Source: Portulaca oleracea (taxonomy: Eukaryota; Streptophyta; Magnoliopsida; Caryophyllales; Portulacaceae). Taken from it: DNA of 64,000 nucleotides. Made by a program: the position numbers and the translations under genes. Below the pieces are notes generated by a model. The model worked only from the letters and a program-made list of their open reading frames with translations. It did no database searches and had not been told where the DNA came from. Shown here in pieces: positions 9,480-52,470 of the stretch. Position 1 is the first letter of the stretch. Every line of letters begins with the position of its first letter. The stretch spans positions 17,514,501-17,578,500 of the forward strand of contig CM055876.1 of NCBI GenBank assembly GCA_029582165.1. The letters are read 5' to 3'.

Positions 9480-10190
9480 AAATTCAACATTTTTGATGAC
9501 TTGAATCTTGAACTTTGTTGACTTGGGAGTCTCAAACTTGAAAATCTTGAATTTTGACTTCGGAGTATTTAACTTTGACGACTTGAGAATCTTTAATTTG
9601 ATTTGAAAGTCTTTAGTTTTGACTTGAAAGTCTGTAATTTTGCTGACTTGTGAGTTTTTGACTTGAAAGTCTTGAATTTGGACTTGTGAGTCTTTGGTAT
9701 TGAAGACTTGGGAGTATTGCTTTTGACTTGGAAGTCTTTAATTTTGGTGACTTGCGAGTCTTTTTCTTGAAAATTTTGAATTTGGACTTGTGAGTCTTGA
9801 TTTGGACGACTTGGAAGTTTTGAATTTTTGACTTGTGAGTCCTTTTTTGGATGACCTGGAAGTCTTGAATTTTTGACTTGTGAGTCTTGATTTTGGTGAC
9901 TTGGAAGTCTTGAATTTTGTTAACTTATAAGTCTTTTGCCTTAATGACTTGGGAGTCTTTGACTTGAAATTCTTGAACTTTGACTTGAGAGACTTTAATT
10001 GTGATGACTTGAAAGTCTTGATTTTGGATTTGTGAGTTTTTTTTTTGGATGACTTGGAAGTTTTGAATTTTGACTTGTGAGTCTTGATTTGCATGACTTG
10101 AAAGTCTTGAATTTTTGACTTGTGAGTCTTGATTTGGATGACTTGGAAGTCTTGAATTTTTTACTTGTGAGTCGTTTTTTTATTATTTGA
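9480..10190. repeat. Array of GACTTnnnAGTC quasi-palindromes (TR-GAG-1)
   Basis: About 28 copies of a 12-bp motif such as GACTTGGAAGTC, GACTTGTGAGTC or GACTTGAAAGTC are spaced about 22 bp apart with T-rich spacers. The outer GACT and AGTC are complementary, so each unit is a short palindrome. The Lys/Ser-rich open frame across it (9738-10094) is a by-product of the repeat. TR-GAG-2 has the same kind of array at 53150-53600. Confidence 0.9.
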
Positions 10191-10210: not shown

Positions 10211-11805
10211 TCAATCAGATTCATCATTATTGTCTTCATCGAAATGATCTTGCCTTCATTTTTAAGCCTCATGACAAGCTCCTTAAAAATTTGGCACTTC
10301 TCCAACGGATGGCTAATGATCCTGTGGTACTTGCAGTATTTAGGGTCATTAATTCTTCCAACTTCATTTGGACGCTTCGACTCTGAAAGTTTAATAATTC
10401 CTTTTCAAGATGTTTATCAAGTATTTCAGGTGTATCATCGTCGGAAAATGGATATTCTTTGTCTTCAAAAATCATTGATGAAGGATTTCTTTTTGACGTG
10501 CCCCCAAGTGAAGTTTGCTTCTCCTTGACACTTGGTCTTCTCGCATTATGTTTGAAAATTGTGAGTTCCATGTCATGTGCCCGCGTTGCCAAGTCTTGAC
10601 AAGTTGTTGGCTTACTCATATGCAAAACATAAAGTAGATCCCATTCCATGCCTTGTATACATATCTTGACTGCGGAGGCTTCGGACAATCGATCTTTGCA
10701 CTCAAGGTTAAGTGACCTCCAATGATTGATATAGTCCAAGACTGACTCCCGGTACCACTGCTTCGTGTTTGTCAACTCCATCATACTGACGGTGCGCTTA
10801 GTGTTGTAGAATCGATTAAGGAATTCTTGTTCCATTTTTTCCCAGCTGTCGATGGACTCCGGCTCCAAGTCCGTATACCAATCAAAGGCGATTCCTTTGG
10901 GTTCTAACGAACTGCTTCACTAGTTGATCTCCCTCAGTCCCAGCATTATTGCAAGTCTCGATGAAATGAGCTATATGTTGCTTAGGATTCCCTTTACCAT
11001 CGAAGTGAGTGAATTTCGGCGGTTGATAGCTGTAAGGCATGCGAAGTGCGTCAATCCTCTTTGTGTAAGGCTTCATGTACAATTGATTTTTATGAGAGCC
11101 TCCCTCGATCTGAGCTTTTATCACATCGGCTACTAGTTTTTGGATCTGCTTCACAGACAATGATCCCGAGCCGGACCCTTCTTCATATTTCTCTTCTTCG
11201 TCAGAATCTTCACGATTGGATCCTCTGTCGGAATCTTCATCTCCCGCACCTTCGTCGAATTTTCCAGCGGGGCGCTTTTCTAACTTCTTCGTTAATTTCT
11301 TGATCCGCTCATCTTGTCGCTTAATATGCTCAGTCTTTTCCTCGCTTTCTTTCTCAAGTCTTGCAAGTGTGGCCTCCATAGTCTTGAATTCTTCTTCATA
11401 GTTAGTAGCATCTGTGACCATGACGGGCATAATAACGGTGTCGATAGAGTCGGTATCAGAATCGAAGGAGAGCGGATCCCTTGGTGATTTTGGCGTTTCC
11501 TTGCCATCTTCATAGTCTTCATCTTCTTCACCCAATGGTTGATATCGAATTTCATACATCCATTGAGCGACTATCTTCTTCGGGTTAACTACTTGAGTCG
11601 AAGTAGTGTGGTTTGCCCCCGGCAAGTTGGAGTCAAAGATTTGCAACGAGGCACTCGCACCAACTTGTTTCTTGGCCTCAATAGCGGCGATCTTGACCAT
11701 ACTTCTAGTGATTACTCCATTGGATGTTGCACTAATTATTGATTCTTGTGACTTGGCTGGAGAAACTTTCTTCAAAGCATGATAGATGTTGTTCTTAGGA
11801 TCCAT
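10211..11805 (-). pseudogene. gag: TR-GAG-1 gag, frameshifted
   Basis: This is the structural (capsid/nucleocapsid) protein of a Ty3/gypsy-type element. The start is taken at the ATG at 11805. Order: an acidic, charged N-terminal coiled-coil-like part; a conserved YTKRIDALRMPYSYQPPKF block leading to FDGKGNPKQHIAHF; the gag core EFLNRFYNTKR...YINHWRSLNLECKDRL; and a C-terminal knuckle CKYHRIISHPLEKC. The frame breaks near 10905, near 10385 and near 10245, so the zinc knuckle now lies in a different frame from the core. The ancestral stop is probably at 10211-10213. The closest relative in the window is the gag of TR-GAG-2. No pol follows. Confidence 0.85.
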
Positions 11806-11858
11806 CTTCTTCGAATGATAAATAGTTCGTTCTTGGAGAAAGAGATGAGAGGCAGAGA

Positions 11859-11877
11859 TGTCCCAGGGAGCGTGCCA
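11859..11877 (-). other. Putative primer-binding site of TR-GAG-1
   Basis: Just inside the 5' (right) LTR the minus strand reads TGGCACGCTCCCTGGGACA. TR-GAG-2 has the near-identical TGGCACGCTCGGTGGGACA at the same place, which supports its role. I do not assign the tRNA. Confidence 0.6.
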
Positions 11878-11882
11878 CAATT

Positions 11883-12272
11883 TATAAACACAAATTTCCG
11901 GGTCTAAATAAATAAACACAAGAAATTAGTGAACAAATATAATATATTAATTTCAAAGGATTTTGGGTACAATCTCTATGTATTTGTTACAAAATGAAAA
12001 TGTAACTCCTCCGATTCGATCTCCTTGAACAAACTTGAATGAGTCTTGAATAAGTATGGTTTCGGATAAATATATTCTTGGATGAATATACTCTTGATTG
12101 AATATGAACTTGGATGATTGTGGTTTTGAACGAGGGTCGTGGAGATTTGATCCCGATCAAGAGGAAGTAGTTTGATCTCCACGAATGGACGACACGATCT
12201 TAAACTTTGTTGTACTTCTTGTCTTCGAGAGAGAGAGTATGAGAGCTTTTGAGTCTTCTTTGGAAGGTTTTC
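11883..12272 (-). repeat. TR-GAG-1 5' LTR, first part
   Basis: It begins TATAAACACAAATTT (TGTA mutated to TATA) and matches 7341 onward until GGTTTTC, where the nested Tat element starts with TGTAGACACC. The remainder is at 29200-29481. Confidence 0.9.
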
Positions 12273-12414
12273 TGTAGACACCCGGATTTGCACCGGATAT
12301 AATCCCGACTTGTCAAAAGTTCAAATAAAACATCTAGGGCTGAATACATCATTGGGCCAATGTAGCAAGCAATGCAAACAAAAAACAAGTATAAGACGGC
12401 CCACTACCAAAGAA

Positions 12415-13123
12415 AAAACCCGCACGGGTTTTTATCAAATGAAATGGCCCAGAACCAGGACAGGCCCAAGGCGCGCCCCGGCCCAGACACTCCAAAACCC
12501 GCGCGGGTTTTCTACAGCCTGATACGCGTCGTTTTGCTCCGTCCACGTCAGCGATCCGTGTGTGAGATATTATAAAACCCGCGCGGGTTTTATCTTTAAG
12601 AATCTGGCGCCAAAAATTTGATCATCATCCCATGGTATTAGCCCATGTGTTTTGACCTTAAGCATTGACTTAATGATTGCATGGCATGATCCAAGGGATG
12701 TGTCCCCATGATTTTCCCTCCAAATCTCACCTCCTTCACCTATAAATACCCCTCTCTTTCACCCCCACTAATCACCAACTAATACCATCATTATCACCTA
12801 AACTCTCTTAACATTCCATCATCCATATTCACTCTCTAATCCTCTTCTAATCACTTTTGTCATATCCATTTTTATTGTTTGTCGGTTTCCTTAAATCGAC
12901 TGGCGACTCTTTCATTCTTTTTATAATCCGTTTAGTTATTTAATATTAGAATTTGCACTAAAATAAGTAAAAATGGCTTAACATCTTCCATTCATCATAT
13001 TCAAGGCTAAAACCGAGAGAAAGTGGGCCAGGAAACAATAAAACCCGCACGGGTTTCTTTCTTTTCCCTCTCTCTGGCCCGAAATGTGACGCCCAGATCA
13101 AGGTCAAAACCCGCGCGGGTTTT
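12415..13123. promoter_or_regulatory. 18-bp palindrome cluster, left LTR (5 copies)
   Basis: Copies are at 12415, 12494, 12574, 13040 and 13106. Those at 12494, 12574 and 13106 are the perfect palindrome AAAACCCGCGCGGGTTTT; the others carry CGCACG in the centre. Three lie 150-330 bp upstream of the LTR TATA box and two downstream. GGCCCA/TGGGCC motifs are interspersed. A regulatory role is inference. Confidence 0.7.
12741..12750 (+). promoter_or_regulatory. TATA box of the Tat 5' LTR
   Basis: TATAAATACC lies in a CT-rich context and is conserved in the right LTR at 28139. It is the probable core promoter, so transcription would start about 30 bp downstream. Confidence 0.7.
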
Positions 13124-13403
13124 GAGTTTTGACAGTTCTTGGCGGCCCGGTTGCTTTCTTTTGGGCCAGAATTTGTTGTTTGGGCCGATTTTAAGTTATT
13201 ATTAATATATTTTGGCGTAACTTCAAATATTTAAATAGTGAAAATGGATTTATAAAATAAATAAAATTTCACTACACCGAAAATGAAGTTCGAAAATAAA
13301 AATATCATTATTTAAGGAGTAAGCAACCTTAGTCGGCTCCCGATCACTTAAGTAGCGCATCCGAAAACAATTTCCCCGAACGGGAATTTTCCGGTCCTCT
13401 GAT

Positions 13404-13421
13404 TGGCGACTAATCGGGGAC
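13404..13421 (+). other. Primer-binding site of the Tat element
   Basis: TGGCGACTAATCGGGGAC follows the left LTR directly. It resembles the TGGCGACTC...GGGGAC type of site seen in Tat/Ogre-like elements. Confidence 0.65.
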
Positions 13422-14825
13422 TTAAACTTAAAAAGAGGGTAAGACTTGAAAAAATCGAATTAATTTGAAATTGTAAAAGGGAGAAGTTGATTTATTTCGT
13501 GATTTTATAATTCTCTTTAGGCATCCTTTGCATACCGGGCCACTAATCGCGTCTTTTGACACGTTAGCACAAAGGCGACGGTTAAGTTATACCTAGGTGA
13601 TTCCCTCGAGAGCGGGCGGGCCACTACTTGTGGGATGCACCCTACATCGCCAAGCATTTGGTCCCCTCTCTCCCCGCGTTATACTCAAAGGGCTTCCTTG
13701 AAGTTCTTTGAGCAATACCTCACACTCCTTACCTAAGGGTATGGAGCACGGAGATGAAAACCTGCGGTAGGCCATGTAATCCAACCATAGAAAATCCGTG
13801 AACACAGAACCTTGATTTAGGGTGTCGCTTCATGTTGTATGCTATGTGCTATGTGCTACCCCTTCATTGGGTTGAGAAAATGATTATTTATTAATTAGAA
13901 TAATTAACCCAAAAGGCATCATGGTTAGCCCAAGTGGAAGGGCCCATTAATGCTTGAAGAGTGATTATTTTAATTAATAAATAAAAATCGACTCACCTTT
14001 GATGATATTATATGGCCCTTTACAAAATTCTCCAAATGAAGGTCGAAAAATTAATTTAAAAGTCCAACAAAGTTAATGGATGGCGTCTTAGATTGTATAA
14101 TAGTCACTAAGCTCGAGGAAATTAATTTGTCGACTTAATTAATAAATCCACCGAATTTATGGCCGGCCCGTTGTTAGGCCCAACCATATTGGATTTATCG
14201 ATTAAACCTATAAATTAATTATGACTCGCTTATTGTTGGCTTTATTCAATCCTTTACAATATCCATTTTCCTCGACTAAAAAAAATTTATAAAACAGGTA
14301 AATAAAAAAAAGATAAAAAGAAAGAAGGTCATAAAAAAATGGGTTGTCAGTCTTGTTAAGCATTATTCTAGTCCGCGTAATAGTCATTATGGCTTGAGTT
14401 GTCTAAGTTGTTGGGTCAAGTTAGGATTCTCCTTAAAACGATCGGCCTGTGGTTTGAGCCCGTCCGAATTGAGGAACACTGACTTGAACTTATCAACTTA
14501 TGCCCCGCTCGCTATGTTTGACTTTATTCGGCCCTTTATAATGCTTTGTCCTTAGGTTCATATAGAGTTAGGTCATGAACTCCTAAAAAGTGGGTGAGTC
14601 CTTTGTGTCAGCATATATGTGTCGAGTCAGTTAGGATCATATAGATCTCTTAGGATCATGCATGCGTCGGGTAGTACATGTCAGAGTATGTCATCGAGTG
14701 TTCTAACTTTGAATTTCCATGCATGAATCATTGGTGATCGACTCCGAGCCCGCATTCGAGATTCACGAACTGGTCGTTTGATTCCGAATCCGCATTACGA
14801 TCCATCTGCAACGAGTGACTGCATC
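13422..14825. other. Tat element untranslated leader
   Basis: A 1.4-kb leader lies between the primer-binding site and gag. The short minus-strand frame at 13593-13805 has no recognisable domain. A long leader is usual for this lineage. Confidence 0.6.
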
Positions 14826-16464
14826 ATGTCTGGAGAACAATTCCAAGAAGTCCCGGTCCAAAGCACCGAAGCCAACATCACGAAGCATTTGGACGAGCTC
14901 TACACTAAAATGCAAGGGCTTGTGTTTGCTAATACCCTAGAGCAGGAGCAGAAGATAAGTAAAAGGCTGAATGAGCAACAACAAGTGATGGATGGTATGC
15001 TGCAAGCCATCACTAAGATCAACACCAAGTTAGGACTGGATGTTGAAGAGGATGACGAAGAAATGCAAGGATATGAATCTGAACCTGAGATCATCAAGAC
15101 ATCCTCAGATTCTGGAGGAGTAGGGATATCTAACGCTAAGGTTAACACGCCTGAAGTGTCAAAACCTACAAGGGACCCCGCTGTTAAGGCCCTTGAGCAG
15201 AAGTTAAAGAGCCTCACCAAAGCAATGAGCTCTGTGCTAGCTTTTGCTGACAAGTACTTAGAGGTCCCATTGCCTATTCAACCAACTTTAAAGATAGCTA
15301 ACAAAGTTGAAGTGCCAAATATCAGGTTCAAACCTTCTGAGAACCCTATTCATCATGTTGAGGAGTTCATGAGGCTGGCACCTTTAAACCGGATTGATGT
15401 CAACTTATACTCTACCATCTTCCCATCCACCCTAGATGGAGAAGCAAAGGTATGGTATCATGCGCTGTCACCTCAAATCAAAGCCAACTGGAGTGAGTTG
15501 TACAAAGCTTTCATCCACCATTACACCCGCATCCAGAAGAAGCAAGCTACGGTGGATGATCTAACCGCCATGAAGCAACGGGATGATGAGTCCTTTATGG
15601 ATTACTTTGAAAGATTACATACAAAGTTGTCCCACATCAATGAGACAATCCCTCTCCGCCTACAGTTATCTACCTTTAAGCAAGGACTCAAGAGCAGTCT
15701 ATCCAAGCATTTAGGGTACCATGTCGTTAAAGACTTTGATTACTTGAAGGACATTTGCGTCCAATTAGAGGCGATGCAAAATGATAAGACCACTTCGCCT
15801 GGATGGAAAAGGTCCAACTCCAATAGGAGGGCCACTAGTGCGGCTAGCCACCCTCCTAAAATTATAGAGACTAACTCTATCCAGCGCAAGTGGCCTTATG
15901 TACCGAAGTATGAGACTTATACGCCGTTGGATGTTCCTTACTCTCAAGCTCTCGACCGTCTAGTCAAGAAGGGTATTTTGGTTTTGCCCTTATCAATTTT
16001 GCCGCTATCACCGTTGTCGAGGGCATGACACTGAGAAATGTTGGACTTTAAGGAACAAGATAGAAGATATGATAAGGGCAGGGACGTTACCAATGCCAAA
16101 AGCTGCCAGGAAACCAAACAATCAAAGTAATCCTATCCCCGAGCATGCGAATGCTATTCTCTATGGCGACTTCAGTTTCTACCCCTCTCCTTTGAATGTA
16201 GAAACAGGTCAACTTGTCCCCGAAGTAGTTTGGTTCCCACAAGGTCTATTCATCCATGGAATTTGGGACAGTGATGAAGATGATGAGCATGAGCATTCCG
16301 AGACAGAATGGGTGGAGACAAATGAACCAGGCAATGTGGCATTTCTTATTCGGTCTGGTCGCCACAACCATAGGAACACCACCTCCCCAGTAACTGTCCC
16401 TAACCACACACCAACGGTCGACAATGACAGTCAGCTCTCCCCTGAAGATCCTTTACTGTCTTAG
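14826..16464 (+). pseudogene. gag: Tat element gag
   Basis: The start is taken at the ATG at 14826 (MSGEQFQEVPVQ); the same frame is open somewhat upstream without an ATG. An N-terminal coiled-coil-like region is followed by the gag core (FMRLAPLNRIDV, AKVWYHALSPQIKANWSEL, FIHHYTRIQKKQ, TFKQGLKSSLSKHL). The frame breaks near 15980. The zinc-knuckle remnant CRYHRCRGHDTEKCW lies in another frame and is followed by a stop (TTTAAG), after which the frame reopens (16069-16464, ILYGDFSFYP...). The protein would package element RNA. Confidence 0.85.
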
Positions 16465-16533
16465 CTCAAAAAGACTAGAGCGGAGGTCACCATATGGCAA
16501 CTCTTATGCACATCACATGCTCATAGACAGAAG

Positions 16534-17364
16534 ATGTTGGATGCCCTTACAGCACTCACAGTACCGCCCACCATGACTCCTGAATCATTGGTCGCTCATG
16601 TGACTACTCAACAGGAAATGATTACTTTTGGGATCGAAAATCTGCCTCAAGGAGGAGCATCTCACAACAAAGCCCTGTACCTTACAGTGCAATGCTCCAA
16701 CAAAACTATTCCACTAGTTCTGGTTGACAACAGCTTAGCTGTAAATGTGTGCCATTGGAGGACGACGCAAAAGTTGGGAGTTCAACAACAACATTTGGCT
16801 CAAAACGGTGTACAACTCAAGGCCTATGATAATTCACCTCGGAGATCAATCGGATCTGTAGTATTGCCCATTACTACTGGCAGTATCACTCGAAATGTGG
16901 AATTTGTGGTGTTAGACATACCAGCCTCCTTCAATTTGCTATTAGGGTGGCCATGGCTTCACGAGTGTAACGTTATAGCGTCCACTCTACATCAAAAGGT
17001 GAAAATGCTGGTTCAAGGACAAGTGATCACTATTTCAAGAGAGTCTATCAACGTTGTTTTCACTCCTAAACAGACAACTCTCGAAGTGGAGCACAGTTCA
17101 ATGGATGAAGAACTCCACAATTTTGAGCTTGTGGCAATGATGAGCCAAGATGAAGCACCTTTTGACTTCGATCCCTACTCAAACCCTAAGGTACATGCTA
17201 TGCTCAAGAGACAAGGTTATTTCCCTAGGATGCCGTTAGGGAAGAATCCGAAGAACAAAATTCCGCCCGTATTCAAGACCTTTAAGCAGCAGGGAAGGTT
17301 TGGCTTAGGCTATAAGCCAACTGAGAAGGAGGCCAGGCTCGCAAAGATGGCTATCGTTGAATAG
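16534..17364 (+). pseudogene. Tat element aspartic protease region
   Basis: HNKALYLTVQC followed by VLVDNSLAVNVC matches the retropepsin active-site region, where related elements have VLVDNGSALNVCP; here the expected Gly after Asn-Asp context is altered. FNLLLGWPWLHE is the downstream protease hallmark. The C-terminal GRFGLGYKPTEKEARL is a G-patch-like motif common between protease and RT in this lineage. It is separated from gag by a TAG at about 16462. Confidence 0.85.
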
Positions 17365-17370
17365 AAAAAG

Positions 17371-17940
17371 ATGGACAATCCTCCCACTTTATTCCAGATG
17401 AAGCCCTATCCACTTACTTTGAATGGGAAATTTGTTAGGGAAGGTGATGACTTCCCCTACTATGGATTCTCTGAGCCATTTTACCTGAAGAACAAGGGAA
17501 TTCAAGTTGCTGGATTGGAAGTCTTCGATGATTGCTCCATTAATATGGCTACTGTCTTTGTTCCCGCTCGGGACAAACAACCTCCATTAGAATGGTCTCA
17601 TCTTGCTGAGAGCAACATTTTTGGCATGTTGTTTGGACAAGAAGCTGTCCAAGAGAAGTCTGAAGTTGATGCTGTTATTGCTGCTTTGTCCAACCCAAGC
17701 TTCGACCCAAGGTCCATGATTACTGAAGTCGGAGAAGTCAAGGCGGTCTCGTGGGTCGATGCTAAGGAGAATAATTTTGCTTTATCTGTAGGAGAGTTTG
17801 TTCCTAAGGACATGGGGTCAGGTCTTAAGGGTCTAGAGTCAAGTGAGTCTGGTCTCGAGTCTGCTGGCGATGTATTCCTTTCTGCATTCAATAAGATGAA
17901 CCTTTCTGCTTACTCTGATTCTTCTTCCCCTTTTCCCTGA
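17371..17940 (+). pseudogene. Tat element linker between protease and RT
   Basis: This 189-codon frame has no catalytic motif. It sits where Tat polyproteins have a poorly conserved linker, and begins after a TAG that ends the protease frame. I do not recognise a domain. Confidence 0.6.
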
Positions 17941-18011
17941 ACTGCTGCGCCAATAATAATCTGGAATTTAATGAACCCCTAAAAGAATTTTCTAATGAAC
18001 ATGAGCATAAA

Positions 18012-19490
18012 ATGGCGGTGTTGGAAGACACCATCACCGTAAACATGGGCACAGAAGGGCAACCTCGGGAGTTGAAGTTAGGTAGCTCACTCACAGCAGA
18101 AGAACGGGTAGCATTCACGGAACTTCTCAAGGAGTTTGTGGACATATTCGCATGGTCCTACGAGGACATGCCGGGGATTGACAGGGAAATTGCAGAGCAT
18201 ATCATACCTTTGCTTCCTAATGCAAAACCAGTTCGACAAAAGGCTAGGAGGATCAAGCCTGAATGGGCTAAGAAGATTGAGGAAGAAGTGATCAAGCATC
18301 TCAACGCTAAATTCATCAAAGCAGTTTAATATCCTGAATGGATTGCTAACATTGTCCCGGTACCCAAGAAAGACGGGAAAGTGCGCATGTGTGTAGACTT
18401 TCGAGACCTCAATAAAGCCAGTCCCAAGGATAGTTTCCCTTTACCTCACATCGATGTATTAGTGGATAACACTTGCAGACATGAGCTCCTATCCTTTATG
18501 GATGGATATGCCGGTTACAATCAAATCAAAATGGCAGAAGAAGACATGGAGAAAACCTCATTCACTACACCATGGGGAATATACTGTTAAGTGGTTATGC
18601 CTTTTGGTCTCAAGAATGCCGGAGCAACATATCAAAGAACCGCCAACACTCTACTTCATGACATGATGCACATAGAGGTAGAGGTTTATGTGGATGACAT
18701 GATTGTTAAGTCCAAAGCGAGGGAGGAGCACATTCCTAACCTTCGCAAGTTCTTTCTGTGACTTCACAAATACAAGATGCGGCTTAATCCAGCAAAGTGC
18801 ACCTTCGGTGTTACCTCTGGGAAGCTGCTAGAGTATGTGGTTAACCAACGGGGCATTGAGGTTGACCCTTCAAAGATAAAGGCTATCCAAGAATTGCAAC
18901 CACCCAGGATAGAAAAAGAGATAAGAGGCTTCCTAGGACGAGTTCAATAAATCAGTAGGTTCATTTCAAAGCTCACCATGACTTATGAACCTTTATTCAA
19001 GAAACTAAAGAAAGGAATCAAAATGGAATGGGATGATCAATGTCAAGCGGCCTTTGACAAAATCAAGGAGTATTTGCAACATCCTCCAGTCCTCATCCTG
19101 CCAGTACCAGATGAGCCTCTACTCCTTTACCTTACCGTGACTAGCTCTGTAATGGGGGCTATGCTACCTCAGAAGGTAAAAGGTCAGGAGAGCGCCATCT
19201 ACTACTTGAGCAAGAAGTTCTTGGACTATGAAAGTCGATACGCAGACATAGAGAAAATGGCTCTCGCATTAGTATGGGCCACCAAGAAGTTAAGGCATTA
19301 CATGCTTTCACATACAATATATGTCATAGCTGAGAATAATCCCGTCAAGTTCATCATGGAACAACCTACCATCAACAACCGCATCACTCGATGGATGGTC
19401 ATGCTTTCAGAGTTCAATCTTCAGTACTTGTCTCAGAAATCCATCAAAGGACGGGTTGTGTCAAATTTCCTAGCTGCTTCACCATCATAG
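18012..19490 (+). pseudogene. pol: Tat element reverse transcriptase and RNase H
   Basis: RT motifs follow in order: KDGKVRMCVDFRDLNKASPK, SFMDGYAGYNQIKM, VMPFGLKNAGATYQR and the catalytic YVDDMIVKS (near 18687). Then comes the classical RNase H region (DEPLLLYLTVTSSVMGAML, YYLSKKFLDYESRYADIEKM). In-frame stops interrupt it: TAA at about 18327 (probably CAA originally), TAA at about 18588, TGA at about 18759 (probably CGA originally), and TAA at about 18948. It is inactive. Confidence 0.92.
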
Positions 19491-19508
19491 GAACCTCTAA
19501 GCACTCAC

Positions 19509-19983
19509 TTGGAATTCCTAGATGAGGATGTATTCTTCACTGACGAAATAACATGGGAAATGTATTTCGACAGAGCTTCCAATCAAATGGGCTGCGGACT
19601 AGGAGTACTACTAATCTCTCCAGAAGGGACACAAGTCCCTGTGTCTGTGAAGTTGGACTTTGATGCTACTAACAACGCTGCCGAATATGAAGCATGCATC
19701 AAGGGCTTACAAGCTGCATTGACCTTGGGAATACGTCACATAAAAGTCTTCGGAGATTCTGGCCTCATCATTAATCAGGCTAAAAATACATGGAAGGTCC
19801 GGAATGAATGTCTTATGGCATATCAATAGAAGCTCTTTGGACTTGCTGACCAATTCGAGCAAATCAGCTTCCAATACCTCTCAAGGGATCACAATGAGTT
19901 AGCTGACGCCCTAGTCAAGTTGTCTTCAATGATATCGATACCATCAGGCACGCTCCAATTACCAATAGTAGTAGTAGAGCGAT
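19509..19983 (+). pseudogene. Tat element second (archaeal-type) RNase H
   Basis: The order WEMYFDRASNQMGCGLGVLL, NNAAEYEACIKGL, VFGDSGLIINQ and DHNELADALVKL is that of the additional aRNH domain of the Tat lineage. Catalytic Asp, Glu, Asp and the final Asp are all present, although the usual FDGS/A is FDRA. TAG stops at 19827 and 19983 interrupt it. Confidence 0.85.
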
Positions 19984-20009
19984 AGTCTGAACCTGCATAT
20001 GTTTGCAAC

Positions 20010-21273
20010 ATGGAGGCACAAGAGGAAGAAACTGAGGAATGGTTCCATGACATATACAATTTTCTTCGGAAAGGAGAATACCCAGCTGAGTTGGATGCTC
20101 GAGGACAGCGAGCGGTCAGGTCTCTAGCAGCACAATACTGCTTGATCCAGGATCGACATTACAATAAATCACCTACGGGCATTAATTTATTATGCATCGA
20201 TGCTAAGAGCGCCAAGGAGATCATGACTACTGTGCATGGAGGAGAGTGTGGTCCCCATATGAATGGACGTATGCTGGCAAAGAAGATTCAAAGGGCTGGT
20301 TACTATTGGTCTACCATGGAGGGGGACTACCTAGAGTTCGTTCGGAAGTGTCACAAATGCCAAGAGTATGCCAACCTACAACATCAACCCCCATCATACC
20401 TAACTACTTTGACATCTCCATGGCCGTTTTCAGTGTGGGGTATCGACATCATTGGCAAGATACACCCAACCGGAACAGGAGGACATGAGTACATATTGGT
20501 CGCCATCGATTACTTCACTAAGTGGGTAGAGGCAGCCTTTTTTGCCAAACTCACATCCAAACAAGTGGCCAAATTCATCCTTCAAAACATCATATGTCGG
20601 TATGGAGTGCCTCATGAGATCATTAGTGACAATGGAAGCCATTTCCGGAAATTTGCTCACCACTTACAAAATTCAGCATCACCGATCTTCGCCATACCGA
20701 CCTCAAGCTAACGGAGCTGTGGAAGCGGCCAACAAGACAGTAACGGGAATCATCAAGAAAATGGTTGTCACTTACAAGGATTGGCCTGATAAATTGGCAT
20801 TTGCCCTGTGGGGATACCGAACCTCTATACGAACTGCTACGGTTGCAACACCATATTCCTTGGTATATGGGATGGAAGCAGTCTTACTAATTGAAGTAGA
20901 GATCCCTTCGTTACGGATATTGGCCGAAAGTCAGTTGCCAGAAGCAGAATGGGCTAGGGCAAGGTTCGAGGAGTTAATGTTAATGGACGAAAGGCGATTA
21001 AGGGCATTGCATAATGTGCAAGTATACCAAAGTAGGATCACTCGTGCTTTTAATAAGAAGGTGAAAAGTCGTTCGCTTCAAGTAGGTGATTTGGTGCTTA
21101 AGGAGATGAGGGCACCTATACAAGATCCGAGGGGAAAATTTGCACATAATTGGAAGGGTCCTTACATGATTAAGGACATTTTGCCAGGAGGCGCAGCTCG
21201 GCTTGCTACTATGGATGGAGAAGATGTAATTCAGCCTACGAATTTGGATCAAATCAAGCGATACTATGCTTAA
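20010..21273 (+). pseudogene. int: Tat element integrase
   Basis: The zinc-binding region has H-x4-5-H (VHGGECGPHM) and CHKC. The catalytic core shows WGIDIIGKIH (first Asp), IISDNGSHF (second Asp) and ANGAVEAANK (Glu). It ends with LQVGDLVLKEM...GKFAHNWKGPYMI, typical of Ty3/gypsy integrase C-termini. A frameshift near 20660 between the second Asp and the Glu splits the frame (20010-20711 and 20542-21273). No chromodomain is visible, as expected for Tat. Confidence 0.92.
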
Positions 21274-21501
21274 TATAACCAAGCAACTGGAAAACCAATT
21301 TTCAGACACTTGGGATATATTTAACAAATGCTCATAAGGAGAATAAAGTTTGCAAGAACACAATAATTGTGAACAATGTTTCTTCTTTATTAATCAATAA
21401 TGCAAGTACACTACTTGTAACATAACAAAATTCAAAAGGCATAATTAAATAAAAGACTATTATGGCAAAGCAGTTTCAGTTCCTTCATTTTCATCAATCT
21501 T

Positions 21502-22962
21502 CTAATCTTGCTTCACTTTCTCTACTTCGCCAGTTGTCTCATGGTCAATCTCCATGTCTCTAGGTCTGTTAAGAGCTTTCTCTTTGTCCTCGGGCTTATA
21601 GGCCCGCCTGCCTGGTTTTCGTGCCTCCACTCTCGGACCAAGTCTATCTTTCACCGAGTCTCTCGTACCCAGACGGTCCTTTACTGAAGTACGAGGACCA
21701 AGTCTTTCCTTTGCAGATATTTGTCTCCTTCTCGCTTCCCCAGCGCGGCGAGATTCAACAGCAACAATCAGCCATCCATGGTAATCAGCATCGACAATAT
21801 GAGACACGTGTATCTTGGGAGGGGCTTTAAGAGTTGGCCTTCTTTCCCAGTATTTCAGCCATGACTCTATCACCGAGCTTCGAAGCTTCAATTTTTCGGG
21901 AGTTTCACACAGTAGCTCAGGAATATCCTGCTTGCAACCCATCTGGCGCTTCACTCGCGCCGGAAAATAAAAGGTCATGTGTGTCAAGCCGGCGAGACAC
22001 ATATAGGCATTGAGGAAATCATGGGTCACATATTCAGAAATGTGCCACCATTCGATCCATCATAAGATATCCCGAGGCTCCTTTAAAAAGGCGATCTATT
22101 CCTTTACCGAGCGGAGATCGGTATACTTCCTCTTCCTCTGATAGTAGTTCGCTATCGCCGAAGAAGTCTGAGGTTCTTCAATAAGACCCAAGTGCTCCAT
22201 TAACAAGATCTGTGCAACATTTAGCCAGGGTTAGATTGCATGCCAATTATCCCAAACAAAAAAAAAAAATGCACAAAACCCACGCGAGTTTTGCAGATAG
22301 TAGAGGCATAGGTCAGACTGGAATGAAAAGGAGGAATGAAATACCTGAAGTAGCAAGGGACTTCCTCGGAAATCATGTTCTGGATCCGGGTCATCCAAGC
22401 CCATCATGGTTTCCGCTAACATTAGAGGCACGAGATTGTAGTCTCGGGACATGTCTTCGACGATTTGGATCAAATTCGCCGGTCCGGTTCTTTTGCCACC
22501 ATGGTAGAAGCAAAACTCGCCAAGGAGACATAATACGAGCGCTCGCACTCGTATCACTGGACCATATACCAAGGTATCAGAAGATTGAAAATATTCAACT
22601 ATGGTTTGAAAGTGTACCTTTTCGCCGAATATTGCGCTTCCGATGACTCGAGAAGGAAGACATAAGAGCTCCTTGTATTGCTTGGGGATGTCCGTTGGCG
22701 TTGGAGGCGATGTCGGCCGAGCAAAATGATTTGTCCCTAGGATGGAGGACCATTCCTCCGGAAGCAGACATAACTCCTTCCACGAAAAGCGGAAGACATG
22801 TATTTTTGGATCCCAAAAAGTCTCCGCCGCACGGAGAAAATCGTGATTAATCCTCACTTGCTGAAGACTCATTAAACTTGTTAACTTATATCTTCCGAGC
22901 TCTTTCTTCTCTTCCTTGGACAAGGTGCTCACCCAAGTTGCAAGTTTCTTCTCGAATGCCAT
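21502..22962 (-). pseudogene. Antisense gene 1 of the Tat element: DUF7745-like protein, 2 exons
   Basis: Exon 1 is 22345-22962 (ATG at 22962, MAFEKKLATW) and ends CAG|GTATTT. Exon 2 is 21502-22209 after CACAG; phases agree (442 codons). The core FWDPKIHVFRFSWKELCLLP with EEWSSILG resembles the retrotransposon-borne plant family now called DUF7745, as do MTFYFPARVKRQMGCKQDIP and PELL. The C-terminus has short RLGPRTSVKDRLGTR repeats. Two exon-2 stops fall where Trp is expected (TAG near 22097, TGA near 22060); both fit C-to-T changes on the + strand. Function is unknown. It lies antisense, downstream of integrase. Domain name is moderately sure; the gene structure is clearer. Confidence 0.7.
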
Positions 22963-25900
22963 GAGAATCAGGTTCCTTTCTTCTTTGTGTTTTAGGAGAA
23001 TATGTGATGAAGACTTTGAAGTGATGATCAGGGGTGATGATTATATGCATAACATGAGGTATTTATACACCTCCATTCATGATCAAAATGGAGAAAATGC
23101 AACCAGCAACGATCAAGTACCCATTGCATTTGTATCCCATGATTTTAGCCCACTTACAACGGTTAGTAAAAAAAAAAAGAAAAACAATATCAAAACCCGC
23201 ACGGGTTTTGATGTGCACAGATCCATGCGCGCGTCTGTCCAAGCCCAGGCCCAGGGCCTGCTGAAGAGAAAACCCGCGCGGATTTTCTGTCGACATGGGC
23301 CGGCTCTCAGTAGCTCGACCCACATGTTTCTGATTGTAACTGGGCTCAGGAATTAAATTTGCCCGTTCGTGTATTTTAAATGTTTCAGATCTTGGCCCAA
23401 TGATACTCGGTTCTGAAATTTTACTCGAGTTTACTCTGACACTTAAGCTTTTGTTTTCTTTTATTTTCTTTTCTTTTTGGGTAAGCGGGATTAAGTTGGG
23501 ATTAATCCCGTCATGTAGAAAGTCATTCAGATATACGTTAATCGTGCATTCACCGAGTCTTGCATATAAAATAAGAAATAAAAATAAATAAGAGTCTTGC
23601 ATTAATAAAAAAAAGTACAAATTAGTCTTGCATACAAAAGTCTAAAATTGCATAGGGTCTTGCTTGTCATCAGTCTGATCACCATAGGGAGCCTGAATTG
23701 CCGCTATCTTCAACCGGGTTGTTACCAGTATGAGAAGTCCCAGCGTTGGAGGCATCAGCCGTGCCGAAATAAGTGTCCCAGGAATAGTAGTCAGGACCAG
23801 GAGTCGTCTGCGGTGGCCCAGACAAGGGAACTTCAGAAGGATGCATGCTCGACGGTGATGATATGGAATGCTCCTGCGAACCGGCTAGCCATGAATGGTC
23901 AGGTAATGTGCCACTCAACAGAAGGGGTAGGCCATACATGATCAGTACCGTAACCGGGGGCTGGCCAACTAGAAGAAGAAGATCCTCCCAACCAAGAATG
24001 TTGAGGTGCAGACCACTCTTGCATACCCGTCGGCCATGAGGGACCCATCCCAGGGGTCGGAACAGGCCACCCAGCAGAATAAGAACCAGAGCCAAAAGAG
24101 GAGGCGTCGTATGGTGCAGGTCGTGAAGTAGCGTCATCCGCTAGGGCCTGACCGCCAGGATACCCTACGTATGCACCTGAATCATGGTCCCTCACCACAA
24201 TCTCCCGACCACGGCGAGCAGAATGCACTGAAGCTGGAGTGCGGCGAGAATGAGAAGGTCGGTTGGTAGCACTTGACTCCGAAGCATCTTCCACCCAATA
24301 GGAATGGGGCTGGGTGTCACCACCATACCCAACACTGTGATGTAACCCCCCTAGGCCAAGTTGTTCATCCAAGGACATTTGAGCCATGTCCTCTTCCATA
24401 GGGCGACGATCTCTGCTATCGGATCTACTACGATGAGACCCAGTTGAATGCTGACCCTCAATCATGATGCCTTTACCGCGACCCTCTGGCACAACTACTA
24501 GAGGAGGATGAGATGACCCACCAACCTCTTCTCGAGATTGGCCCCGGGAAGAATATTCCCCTGCCGAAGAACGACGTGGGGGCTCAGTGCGAGGGACCCC
24601 TCCAGTAGAACGCCGAGGGGGATCCCGAGGAACAGACTCTGCATCGGCTTCCATATCAGCCCTTCCGACAGTATTCCCACGATACCTGCCTGAGCCGATG
24701 AATGCCCGGTCAATGTGCTTTAACATAGTACTCCACTCCTTGGTCACTTGTCGGAAGATAACCCATCTTAGCTGGAAGACAATGAGACCAAGGTCATACA
24801 TGTATAAATGGCATAAGGGAGAAAAGGGAGGAACATGAAGACTTACCGGTTTCCGATCAAACTCTCGGAGTGCAGAGCATTGACTGCTAGTCTCTACATC
24901 CAAGAAACCGCCAATCTTTCTTCTCGCTAGTGGAGCCTCCACCTCAGCGGCCTTAGCATAGGGCCTCAACGGTAAACATTATGATCAGAAATCAGCCAAA
25001 ACATGACAGAAGCTGTAAACATTATAGTTAGAAAACATGACAGAAATAAACGGCTCAAGTAGCGCTGAAATTCCTCATCAAATTGCTCCTATGAGACGTC
25101 ATGCACAAAGTTGTCGGAGTCTTGGCCGTGAATCCAATCTCCCAAGGCACCCGGAGCAACGCGCCATAGCTCGAACATCTGCTCTGGAGGATGTTGGGGT
25201 ATAAGACCGAGATATTCCCCCAGGATTTGCCTCGTAGCTCTCTCCCCCAAGTACCATATGAAGCCTCAGGGTCCCTTCATCAGAATACGGAGGCGAGTAT
25301 CATGCTCCACTGTTTGCAAAGGGGTGGGCAATCCGCCCAAGTTGAACTCCGCTCATGGACGCCAGTTCACGTGGTCATGTGAAAGAAAGAGAGTCACTAC
25401 AAGAATAGAAGCAAAATAAATAAAGGCCTTAGGTATAAAGAAATACCGGGGAGAGGTCATCCAGCATACGACGAACGCGATCGAGACTGCCCGACTGGAA
25501 TTTCTTCCCATGAACGGCCTCGGTAGACAAGCGTTCAGCAGCTGGGACTGTCTTATTCTTCTCGGAGCGAATGCCCAAAGACAGAATATACTCGTATGCC
25601 CATGATTGCATGAATATAAAGTCAAAGAAGGAGCGAAAGAGTAGCAAAACTACAAAGAGAAGAGTCACGGGGATATACCTCGAGCACCATCCATAGAGAA
25701 GGGTCGTACTGGTAGCGAGTATGAGACTTGTGGAGGTAAACCGGATCATTATCCTGTGAAAGCCTAATGCCGCGGCGAAGCCAGAGGATGAAGTTCGCAT
25801 AAGCCGCCTTGCCCCAGTTCAAGTTCCGAACATTATTTAAGTCCAAAAGATTCCGAAGCCACGTCAAAGTGATGTTATCTCCCCGGTTGGCGAATAGGGT

Positions 25901-26745
25901 GGCAGAAATGATGTATGCCAAATGAAGCGGCATTGATCCCCAGGCAAGTTCTGGAAGTTGGCGTCAAGGATGGCCGCCTCGAAGTACGCATAAGCAAGGT
26001 TGGAAAGGCCCTGTCCTTGGTCTAAGCGCGCTGACAATGGACCCAGAAGATCCAAGACCATCGGCGGAATCTCAGCGTCGAAAACTACATCACGCCCTCC
26101 CCAAGGAAGACCAGTGATCATGATAAAATCTGTAGGGGTAATCGTCATCTCGCCCACCGGAAAATGAAAGGAGTTGGTGGTGTCCCAAAACCTTTTAGCT
26201 ATAGCACGGCCTATAACACGGTATGTACGGCCCTTCCAGGCCACCAAACATTTCCAGAACGACATGAGTCCCACCGCGGTCAAGGTATTGCTAACAAAGT
26301 CCCCGGGAATTGAGGCGCCTACCTTAAGGAGATCCTTTAGGACACCGGGGGTTTTCAAGTTATCCTCCTAAAGGCAAACAGAAGGGATCAGTTAAAGTTG
26401 AGGGCTCATCTAAATACATTGGACCAAGGCCTATTCTTTCGGGCCCTAGCTGGACCCAGCACCAACACTGGGCTCACAGCCATGACCCACAAGATAAATA
26501 AATTGGAAAACGAAAAAAAGAGCAAAACAAAAAAAAGGACAACTCAGCACGGCCCAAATGTGCCGGCCCAGCAGAACTAAAACCCGCACAGGTTTTAATT
26601 CTCTTATGGGCCGCACATTCAGGCCCAGTGTCTTTTTTGGCGGTCTGCGGGCCAGAAAACCCGCGCGGGTTTTCTTTTTTTTTTTTCTGGTGGGCCGTTT
26701 TCTTTGTCAATTAGGCCGATCATGCATAAAACCCACACTGATTTT
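22275..26745. promoter_or_regulatory. 18-bp palindrome, internal copies of the Tat element (6)
   Basis: Copies are at 22275 (intron of the DUF7745-like gene), 23192 and 23269 (spacer), and 26579, 26656 and 26728 (intron 1 of the PMD gene). The copy at 26656 is the perfect AAAACCCGCGCGGGTTTT; the others have one to several changes, mostly CG to CA or TG. All avoid the coding exons. Confidence 0.7.
22963..23678. other. Spacer between the two antisense genes of the Tat element
   Basis: It lies upstream of the DUF7745-like gene and downstream of the PMD gene, so it may hold the promoter of the former. It contains palindrome copies at 23192 and 23269 and several GGCCCA/TGGGCC motifs. Confidence 0.5.
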
Positions 26746-27045
26746 CTCTTGGGTCGGGTTTGGTCCGTCTCTCAAATTGGGTTATCGTTTTAAATAAATA
26801 AAAAGAGTCATCATGAAGGCATGCATACACATCAATTTAAAGCATGCTTAAAATAATGAAAAATCGACAAGACATGAAAAATAAATTCGTGCTTGCTCAT
26901 TTTTTTATTAAACTAAGCATAAAAGAGAGGTTTTGGAAATTACCTTGCCATGGGAGCGGTAGAACCAAGCATGGTTCCAAGACTGAATAGTAAGGTCCGA
27001 AGGGGCGGCGTTCGCACTCGGAATAAAATTGCGACGTGAAGACAT
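23679..27045 (-). pseudogene. Antisense gene 2 of the Tat element: plant mobile domain (PMD) protein, about 6 exons
   Basis: PMD (aminotransferase-like) proteins occur in retrotransposons and in host MAIN/MAIL proteins. Exon 1 is 26944-27045 (ATG at 27045, MSSRRNFIPSANAAP). Exon 2 is 25679-26367, with FWDTTNSFHFPVGEMTITPTDF, the PMD signature, and a frameshift near 25945 before SATLFANRGDNITLTWL and RNLNWGKAAYANFI. Exon 3 is about 25447-25606 (SWAYEYILSLGI); its acceptor reads TGCAA rather than TGCAG. Exon 4 is about 25040-25375, with stops where Trp is expected. Exon 5 ends at 24847 (CCG|GTAAGT). Exon 6 starts at 24771 (VTKEWSTMLKHIDRAFIG) and continues as a Ser/Arg/Gly-rich tail to about 23679 with a frameshift near 23930. 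A decayed copy. Confidence 0.8.
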
Positions 27046-27049
27046 CTCG

Positions 27050-27610
27050 TGGGACCATGCCGCCGCATAAAAGAGCACCATCATCTGGTTGCCGCAAAAA
27101 AGGGACCATCCATCGTCCGGTTGCCGCATAAAAGAGCATCATCATCTAGTTGCCGCTAAAAAGGGACCATTTATCATCCGGTAGCCACATAAAAGAGCAC
27201 CATCAGCGACAGTCGTCAAACGGTTGCCACTTAAAGGCCTCCAATGATGTCGTCAGCGACAGTCGTCCCACGGTTGCCACCTAATGGCCTCCAACGATGA
27301 CGTCAGCAACAATCGTCCAACGGGTTCCGCGTAAAGGACTCTGATGATGTTAGCAACAGCAGTCGTTCAAACGGATTCCACTTAAAGGACTCCAAACGAC
27401 ATTCTTAGCATCAGTCGTCCAACGGTTGCCACCTATATGTTACCGACAATCTCTTCATCAGCAGCAGTCGTTCAAACGGATTCCACTTAAAGGTCTCCAA
27501 CGACACCCTCAGCATCGGTCGTCCAGCGGTTGCCATCTAAAGGTTACCGACGACATCATCATCAGCAACATCACCTGGTTGCCATATAAAAGAACACCGC
27601 CAACATCAAA
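27050..27610. repeat. Degenerate tandem repeats upstream of the Tat 3' LTR
   Basis: Blocks of roughly 55-65 bp share CGGTTGCC, (A/T)TAAAAGAGCACCATC or TTAAAGGCCTCCAA, and CAGCGACAGTCGTC. They are followed by a polypurine tract and the right LTR. There is no coding potential. Confidence 0.75.
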
Positions 27611-27657
27611 GATAGACATCAAGTCTACTTTGACCTTCGTCCTATTCGGACTCGATC

Positions 27658-27672
27658 AAAGTGGGGGCTCTT
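27658..27672 (+). other. Polypurine tract of the Tat element
   Basis: AAAGTGGGGGCTCTT lies immediately before the right LTR, where plus-strand priming is expected. Confidence 0.7.
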
Positions 27673-29194
27673 TATAGACACCGGGATTTGCATCGATATA
27701 ATCCCGACTTGCCAAAAGTTCAAATAAAACATCTAGGGCCGAATACATCATTGGGCCAATGTAGCAAGCAATGCAAACAAAAAACAAGTATAAGGCGGCC
27801 CACTACCAAAGACAAAACCCGCACGGGTTTTTATCAAATGAAACGGCCCAGAACCAGGACAGGCTCAAGGCGCGCCCCGACCTAGACACTCCAAAACCCG
27901 CGCAGGTTTTCTACAGCCCGATGCGCGTCGTTTTGCTCCGTCCACGTTAGCGATCCGTGTGTGGGATTTATAAAACCCGCGCGAGTTTTATCTTTAAGAA
28001 TCCGGGGCCGAAAACTTGATCATCATCGCATGATATTAGCCCATGTGTTTTGACCTAAAGCATTGACTCAGTGATTGCATGGCATGATCCAAGGGATGTG
28101 TCCCCATGATTTTCCCTCCAAATCTCACCTCCTTCACCTATAAATACCCCTCTCTTTCACCCCCACTAATCACCAACTAATACCATCATTATCACCTAAA
28201 CTCTCTTAACATTCCATCATCCATATTCACTCTCTAATCCTCTTCTAATCACTTTTGTCATATCCATATTCACTCTCATACAATTCTTCTAAACACTTGC
28301 ATATTTCCATCAAGGTCCAAAGGTCAAGGCGAAGTCAAGAAATTCAACCGGCGCGTTCGAGCTCCTAAGTCAAAAAGGTTCGCTTTATGTTTCTTTTCAT
28401 TATTATTTAATCATGTAATTTGTACTTTATTTTCATTACTTGTGTATATTTTGTAAACCAAAAACCCCTTGTTTTATAATGCATGTTAAGAATATAAATT
28501 TGCGAAATTAATTAAACTTCTCCCTGCTTTATTTCATTTTGATGTCGATTTTAGTAGAGTGTTTTCTAACAGGCGAATTCGAGAATTCTTATAATTCTCG
28601 AATTCGTAACCTTACCCCCGGACTTAGAATCGGGTTCCATAGACCGGAGTCATTTTCATTATTTTTATGGTTTGTCGGTTTCCTTAAATCGACTGGCGAC
28701 TCTTTCATTCTTTTTATAATCCGTTTAATTATTTAATATTAGAATTTGCACTAAAATAATGAAAAATGGCTCAACATCTCCCATTCATCATATTCAAGGC
28801 TAAAACCGAGAGAAAGTGAGCCAGGAAACAATAAAACACGCCGCGGTTTTCTGTTTCCAACCCCTCTACGGCCCGGTGTGAGACGACCAGGTCAAGGCCC
28901 GATCAAAACCCGCACGGGTTTCGACAGTTCTTGGCGGCCCGGTTGCTTTCTTTTGGGCTAGAATTTGTTGTTTGGGCCGATTTTAAGTTATTATTAATAT
29001 ATTTTGGCATAACTTCAAATATTTAAATAGTGAAAACGGATTTGTAAAATAAATAAAATTTCACCACACTGAAAATGAAGTTCGAAAATAAAAATATCTT
29101 TATTTAAGGATTAAGCAACCTTAGTCGGCTCCCGATCACTTAAGTAGCGCTTCCGAAAACAATTTCTCCAAACGGGAATTTTCCGGGTCCTACA
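27673..29194 (+). repeat. Tat element 3' LTR, 1522 bp
   Basis: It starts TATAGACACCGGG (TGTAG changed to TATAG) and ends GGGTCCTACA. It carries a TATA box at 28139. It contains about 392 bp that the left LTR has lost. By eye the aligned parts differ at several percent of sites. Confidence 0.9.
27814..28922. promoter_or_regulatory. 18-bp palindrome cluster, right LTR (5 copies)
   Basis: Copies at 27814, 27893, 27972, 28833 and 28905 correspond one to one to those of the left LTR. None is perfect here; changes are mainly CG to CA in the centre, and the copy at 28833 is rearranged (ACACGCCGCGGTTTT). Confidence 0.7.
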
Positions 29195-45937: not shown

Positions 45938-47040
<1,103 letters not shown>

Positions 47041-52009: not shown

Positions 52010-52470
52010 GTCGAAGATCGAGTACCGTCAAAGACAAAGATAACGGGCTTCGCTTTTACGTGAGGAGTTTATTCTTGTTGGAGGTGATGAGTTAGATACT
52101 TTTTTGGAAGACTGAGTACAGCCAAAGACAAGGAAAACGGGCTCCACTTTTGCGCGAGAAGTTTATCCTACTTGGAGGTGATGAGTCGGATATTTTTTGG
52201 ATGACCGAGTACCGCCAAAGATAAGGATAACGGGCTCCGCTTTTACGCGAGGAGTTTATCCTTGTTGGAGGTGATGAGTGGGATATTTTTTGGAAGACCG
52301 AGTACCGCCAAAGATAAGGATAACGGGCTCTGCTTTTGCGTGAGGAGTTTATCCTTGTTGGAGGTGATGAGTCGGATATTTTTTGGATGACCGAGTACCG
52401 CCAAAGATAAGGATAACGGGCTCCGCTTTTGCGCGAGGAGTTTATCCTTGTTGGAGGTGATGAGTCAGCT
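52010..52470. repeat. About 95-bp tandem repeat, nearly 5 units (TR-GAG-2)
   Basis: Each unit has GAGTACCGCCAAAGATAAGG, ATAACGGGCTCCGCTTTT and GAGGAGTTTATCC; starts are near 52020, 52113, 52207, 52300 and 52393. The sequence is unrelated by eye to the array of TR-GAG-1 but sits at the same place. Confidence 0.88.

Follow-up and report, generated by a model that had tools for sequence, protein, structure and literature searches.

Why should a single 18-bp palindrome, AAAACCCGCGCGGGTTTT, recur 16 times within one mobile element and nowhere else in the surrounding DNA? The question is raised by a 64-kb stretch of the Portulaca oleracea genome (contig CM055876.1, positions 17,514,501 to 17,578,500), here called the window and numbered from its first letter. 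The element that carries the palindrome is, as assigned from its domains, its long terminal repeats (LTRs) and its target-site duplication, a Ty3/gypsy retrotransposon of the Tat/Ogre type: gag, RNase H, a second RNase H (RVT_3) between RNase H and integrase, integrase and LTRs are all present, and a TTTTC duplication flanks it on both sides. On its antisense strand lie two genes, A and B, of the plant mobile domain (PMD) superfamily. The answer that we favor, with a probability of about one half, is that the palindrome serves as a conserved recognition site in cis, forming a promoter-proximal array that would be read by the PMD proteins of the element itself for an anti-silencing role like that of VANC proteins. 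That the array is conserved, promoter-proximal and directional is close to certain.

A preliminary description of the window had listed the 16 copies, and all of its coordinates proved to be exact (Table 1). Four copies match the palindrome perfectly, six have one mismatch, four have two, and two (26728 and 28833) have four; no further place within 5 mismatches was found in the rest of the window, including the other 47 kb outside the element. When the element sequence was shuffled and up to 4 mismatches were allowed, each shuffle gave 0.08 sites on average, against the 16 of the real element. As had been described, each LTR contains five sites; the other six are divided between the intron of gene B (one), intron 1 of gene A (three) and the spacer that separates the antisense genes (two), an arrangement that agrees with splice sites read from the sequence alone; a TATA-like CTATAAATA stands at 12740 in the 5' LTR. 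It was also confirmed that coding exons are free of the motif, the mapped exons of sibling elements included. The statement that all non-coding parts carry it was, however, too broad: in the window it is absent from the 5' leader (13401-14726), the gap between pol and gene B, gene A at 23661-26368 and the tandem array at 27050-27671, and the siblings had no site in mapped leader (11,617 bases), gag-pol (29,540) or tandem array (4,328).

Genome-wide counting, a check proposed in the preliminary description, gave 2,544 exact copies of the 18-mer in the 1.13-Gb genome, against 0 of the reversed control. Twenty stretches around the exact-motif places listed first, all on one contig (L030-L049), were taken as siblings, and all 20 indeed aligned to the window element, with summed BLAST pieces of 1.9-10.7 kb. 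They hold 137 sites when up to 4 mismatches are allowed, and none of the reversed motif; 50 are in U3, 31 in R-U5, 17 in gene A intron 1, 12 upstream of gene B and 6 in the gene B intron, and the remaining 21 have no counterpart in the window (the unmapped group). This last group includes, in L032, L034 and L046, a three-site cluster placed upstream of gene A by flanking BLAST pieces and missing from the window copy; in some siblings a motif cluster adjoins the gene A tandem array, again missing in the window copy. A second set was chosen by gene B exon 1, independently of the motif: among 4,568 candidates 150 matches were scored, and the region upstream of gene B was examined in the 12 top and 8 bottom hits (L050-L069). 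At least one palindrome was present in 19 of these 20 copies (L068 had none) and two in 17, the 17 upstream spacings having a median of 78 bp. A multi-copy site common to LTR and antisense genes, as had been supposed, is thus kept in both position and sequence. It is to be noted that the second site upstream of gene B carries a palindrome-preserving double change, AAAG...CTTT, in L055, L056, L060, L062, L066, L067 and L069, and only its left side in L052, L054 and L064. Outside plants, the exact 18-mer was found in one single-site contig of IMG/VR, which held no relative by integrase or PMD profile; GTDB contigs contained no relative of the element, and in a 257-Gb prokaryote collection a form of the 18-mer allowing either G or A at position 10 occurred in 24 stretches at one site each, which is the chance level.

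Within their clusters the sites are, moreover, nearly evenly spaced. Adjacent sibling sites less than 250 bp apart (n = 80) have a median spacing of 78 bp, 68 of them falling within 73-83, and the median is 78 in U5, in U3, upstream of gene B and in the unmapped group, and 77 in the gene A intron. On one LTR set the window spacings are 79, 80, 66, 77, 77 and 72; random placement put all six within 66-80, a range set after the data were seen, in 0 of 200,000 trials. The richness in site-II-like GGCCCA/TGGGCC that had been remarked upon was also borne out and could be located, since these boxes are enriched 17.3-fold within 60 bp of the palindrome (143/250) and stand between neighboring palindromes: of 68 intervals that measure 70-86 bp, 44 contain GGCCCA on either strand, and 43 of 68 GGCCCA/TGGGCC occurrences lie at 0.4-0.7 of the interval.

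TCP factors bind site II, and both this enrichment and the clustering of the palindrome near promoters would suit an array of host transcription-factor sites, in which the palindrome would be recognized by a host protein and the GGCCCA boxes by TCP-type factors, for transcription in dividing cells, with no protein of the element involved. We nevertheless regard this as unlikely, given that all 20 motif-chosen stretches belong to one family, that the other 47 kb of the window lacks the motif, and that a specificity of 18 bp is long for a plant host factor. The CGCG box of CAMTA factors is broken by the common GCAC center, and the suggested E2F-like half-site appears not to fit, the E2F consensus TTTSSCGC being different from the arms of the motif. 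Of MSA (mitosis) elements the array contained one near-match only.

Uniform spacing in unrelated regions could also have been inherited, if the sites were without function and had been left behind by an ancient tandem repeat of 78 bp, or by fold-back insertions, spread by recombination. Boxes at mid-interval are what such a repeat unit would contain, two neighboring gene A intron sites of L032 share most of their left flank, and in the window alone the inverted symmetry runs past the 18-mer, the first flank pair being complementary at 8 of 11 sites (19 of 20,000 shuffles); across 41 flank classes it was complementary in 20, against 13.4 expected (366 of 20,000). Such a passive origin, already disfavored, is nonetheless highly improbable. 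In all 5 regions compared in the siblings, conservation is higher in the motif than in its flanks, the spacing stays near 78 bp despite a flank identity of 68-79%, and the flanks of neighboring sites resemble each other at the level of shuffles in 75 of 76 pairs, with regional means of 0.48-0.52 against 0.48.

The site looks symmetric and yet has a direction. Its center is mostly G-C-G-C or G-C-A-C, and in element orientation the CA form of the center occurs 58 times against 6 of the mirror-image TG, with an excess of CA in every region except the gene B intron (1 vs 1). The preliminary description had reported that most deviations were CG to CA or TG, as methylated sites would be expected to show. 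Every one of the 15 G/C transitions in the window is, however, G>A as read on the plus strand, and plain CpG decay is disfavored because the center is so directional, whereas such decay would fall evenly on both strands. Heavy CpG decay of the LTRs is likewise not evident, since their observed/expected CpG ratio without the motif is 0.88 and 1.05, against 0.52 in gag-pol (spacer, 0.72; gene A intron, 0.63; short gene B intron, 0.00). In the siblings the G>A skew is confined to the center; in the arms of 125 distinct sites, C5-7 changed to T 13 times and G12-14 to A 11 times. A left half-site AAAACCC, which the 15 G>A and 0 C>T of the window had suggested as the conserved half, was rejected on this balance of arm transitions. 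Alignments A4 and A5 (13 rows) omit the three U3 sites of the 3' LTR.

In U5 the palindrome has a further property, as it caps two hairpins whose stems, as delimited for counting, comprise 16-18 pairs. In the flank-pair test, which leaves out window site 28833 and the three U3 sites of the 3' LTR, U5 flanks pair in Watson-Crick fashion at 6.70 of 10 positions, against 4.01 in shuffles (0/3000). Compensatory counts, which leave out also three sites that are decayed or lie out of register (L043 1330, L031 5028 and L032 9781), gave 37 cells changed on both sides in 10 of 18 pairs of the first hairpin (16 sequences) and 20 cells in 6 of 16 pairs of the second (11 sequences); neither cell count was reached in any of 500 shuffles and sliding controls were far lower, with the caution that the sibling copies are related, so that shuffle counts overstate independence. 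Weaker measures were further pair types (6/500 and 47/500 for the two hairpins) and pairs changed on both sides (0/500 and 15/500). As far as sequence comparison goes, these hairpins show that the same 18 letters matter in U5 also in paired form, and any full account has to accommodate this.

Under a further reading the palindromes act as hairpins in RNA, whether genomic or antisense, much as in the leaders of retroviruses, and would serve dimerization, packaging, splicing or export; the compensatory changes, the paired flanks and the ratio of 30 G-T to 15 A-C in U5 all speak for this. As an account of the whole array this is quite doubtful, however. The inner stem letters have no both-sided change, the mapped leader is without sites, and a constant interval of 78 bp, as seen in U3 and the upstream regions, is not something that RNA hairpins require. 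Outside U5 the stems are not significantly extended beyond the 18-mer (U3, 793/3000; gene A intron, 270/3000; gene B upstream, 250/3000; gene B intron, 834/3000), save in the unmapped group (14/3000). A general tolerance of G-U pairs in antisense RNA, which had looked good in the window, was discarded on the siblings, where the relation differs by region: G-T exceeds A-C in U5 and the gene A intron (29/15), and falls below it in U3 (39/47), upstream of gene B (4/22), in the gene B intron (1/11) and in the unmapped group (15/21). Retroviral dimerization hairpins are leader hairpins with a self-complementary GC tip; those described here differ in lying in U5, two in a row, with a motif that recurs in U3, introns and upstream regions. 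As a separate observation, the two LTRs of the window differ by 23.3% in the U5 hairpin patch (13040-13133 vs 28833-28924) and by 0-5.2% elsewhere, suggesting template switching or conversion at this place.

The candidate readers are encoded by the element itself. Gene A matches PMD at 35.9 bits, against a Pfam cut-off of 34.9, with a weak DUF1985/PMD match at 25625-25963; gene B matches DUF7745 at 16.7 bits and, C-terminally, PMD at 22.6 bits, both below the cut-offs, and in an alignment of its relatives DUF7745 was matched by 56 of 60 members and PMD by 21 of 60 (E 0.1). Both frames are broken in the window copy. Even so, gene B exon 1 has a ratio of nonsynonymous to synonymous change (dN/dS) of 0.11 among 7 copies (the window and six motif-chosen ones, four of which have 1-2 stops in exon 1 that were skipped), which indicates purifying selection. 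The predicted fold of a gene B relative matches DNA-bound VANC21 (9lnj); a structure search with a model of the element's own exon gave no match, Foldseek returned nothing significant, and no protein homolog was found for the gene A piece. The tie to an element-encoded protein that had been thought possible thus gains indirect support from selection on gene B and the VANC21-like predicted fold of its relative; the binding itself is something that we infer. Transposase_28 had no match among 8 antisense pieces scanned, and by these profile matches the element, with its antisense PMD extra open reading frame (ORF), resembles Ogre rather than Retand.

In the mechanism that we favor, palindromes at about 78-bp spacing, alternating with GGCCCA boxes, would mark the three transcription units of the element, namely the LTR with its U3 and U5, antisense gene B with its upstream region and, in siblings, antisense gene A with its upstream region, the sites lying both within and ahead of these two genes. 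One or both antisense-encoded PMD-superfamily proteins most probably bind the palindrome, and, as VANC of VANDAL transposons does, they would find their own element through a short motif in its non-coding parts; once bound, they may keep its promoters open against silencing. In U5 the palindrome may also be read in RNA or as extruded DNA, via the hairpin tips. Such a reader would be the simplest link between the palindrome, which we met in this family alone, and the VANC-like protein under selection that the family also encodes, and the anti-silencing outcome is suggested by analogy.

How this arrangement relates to known systems is judged here from the available parts of the published texts. 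PMD occurs in 57% of Ogre elements (PMC6317226), PMD-A clades are restricted to Gypsy (PMC5418596), and an anti-silencing role of PMDs carried by transposable elements has been speculated upon (PMC5418596, PMC8616336); the present element resembles these in having PMD genes on a Ty3/gypsy element, and differs in its cis motif, none being described in the available text of two of these accounts (PMC6317226, PMC5418596). Retand antisense ORFs have a probable DNA-binding TRP28 domain (Vicient 2025, PMC11963269). In Arabidopsis VANDAL, the motif of VANC21, a protein whose crystal structure was announced in 2021 as unpublished (PMC8756742), is YAGTATTAY (PMC5735166, PMC10398659). The likeness to VANC/VANDAL lies in an element-encoded protein family and in a short motif repeated in intronic, intergenic and terminal non-coding parts and absent from coding ones; the fold predicted for the gene B relative may be a further likeness. 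The differences are that VANDAL is a MULE and not an LTR retrotransposon, that its motif is 9 bp and asymmetric rather than an 18-bp palindrome, that it multiplies in tandem repeats rather than at 78-bp spacing with unrelated flanks, that it has a clear DUF1985 protein rather than a PMD/DUF7745 one, and that the U5 hairpins belong to the present element, for which binding and demethylation are conjectural. The element is not filed as a VANC member because multiplication of the motif by tandem repetition was not found, with 1 of 76 neighboring pairs above the 99th percentile of shuffles.

Host proteins of the PMD class offer another comparison, since MAIN, MAIL1 and PP7L are tied to the DOWN promoter motif, exemplified by CATGCAGTTT of the MORC1 promoter (PMC7156037, PMC9899485). 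That module concerns host genes, its one printed example, compared here in place of a matrix, differs from the palindrome, and direct binding of the motif by PMD is, in the available text, as putative there as in this element. Newer work on host modules of PMD proteins and motifs reportedly exists. The literature search, which covered neither preprints nor most subscription papers, retrieved no account of the palindrome in an LTR retrotransposon or of a link between PMD and the VANC fold.

Table 1. Coordinates of the palindrome sites and of the element that carries them.
Feature	Position	Strand	Basis
5' LTR	12273..13400	+	LTR comparison; 395-bp gap relative to 3' LTR; TTTTC duplication
Palindrome, U3 site 1, center GCAC	12415..12432	+	Motif scan
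Palindrome, U3 site 2, exact	12494..12511	+	Motif scan
Palindrome, U3 site 3, exact	12574..12591	+	Motif scan
U5 hairpin 1, palindrome 13040-13057 at tip, imperfect in window copy	13030..13067	+	Motif scan, pairing analysis
U5 hairpin 2, exact palindrome 13106-13123 at tip, outer stem imperfect in window copy	13096..13133	+	Motif scan, pairing analysis
gag-pol, several open pieces	14727..21273	+	Pfam matches: Retrotrans_gag, RNase H, RVT_3, integrase
Gene B exon 2, C-terminal PMD match under Pfam cut-off	21502..22209	-	Two in-frame stops in window copy
Palindrome, gene B intron	22275..22292	+	Motif scan
Gene B exon 1, DUF7745/PMD superfamily	22346..22962	-	Profile matches; dN/dS 0.11 among 7 copies
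Palindrome, ~230 bp upstream of gene B ATG	23192..23209	+	Motif scan
Palindrome, ~307 bp upstream of gene B ATG	23269..23286	+	Motif scan
Gene A exon 2 onward, end approximate	23661..26368	-	PMD match above Pfam cut-off at 25867-26367; frame broken in window copy
Palindrome, gene A intron 1	26579..26596	+	Motif scan
Palindrome, gene A intron 1, exact	26656..26673	+	Motif scan
Palindrome, gene A intron 1, decayed, 4 mismatches	26728..26745	+	Motif scan
Gene A exon 1	26945..27045	-	GT-AG junctions read from sequence
3' LTR	27672..29194	+	LTR comparison
Palindrome, 3' LTR U3 site 1	27814..27831	+	Motif scan
Palindrome, 3' LTR U3 site 2	27893..27910	+	Motif scan
Palindrome, 3' LTR U3 site 3	27972..27989	+	Motif scan
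Palindrome, 3' LTR U5 site 1, decayed, 4 mismatches	28833..28850	+	Motif scan
Palindrome, 3' LTR U5 site 2	28905..28922	+	Motif scan

The 395 bp that are found in the 3' LTR and absent from the 5' LTR lie at 28267-28661, and the tandem array upstream of gene A, at 27062-27567, is imperfect, with periods of 32, 50-61 and 104 and a repeated AACGG. Elsewhere in the window, further ORF groups at 10269-11925 and 53691-54927, both on the minus strand, appear gag-like by eye, the Pfam gag model matching 10272-10916 only; a long exon of a filament-like plant protein (FPP), a host gene, lies at 35409-37238 on the minus strand; a long TA microsatellite at 46605-46991 gives an open frame of IY repeats; and repetitive, minisatellite-like reading frames are present at 52092-52469 and 9738-10160.

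One gyre of nucleosomal DNA is about 78 bp. A wider proposal, possible and put forward tentatively, is that Ogre-type PMD proteins are sequence-specific self-recognition factors with the VANC fold, each family bearing a palindromic address of its own that repeats with a phase of about one such gyre, so that the protein would grip two turns and open the promoters, and that the host proteins MAIN and MAIL1 would be domesticated readers of such addresses. The function of the plant mobile domain is still called unknown in the available literature, and thousands of copies of one palindrome, at near-fixed spacing and with a matching protein family of the element, provide a concrete candidate for its DNA target. 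If the favored reading is true, LTR retrotransposons would have an anti-silencing system like that of VANDAL, the retention of antisense PMD genes by Ogre-type elements would have a reason, and there would be a hint as to how the PMD silencing factors of the host find their genes.

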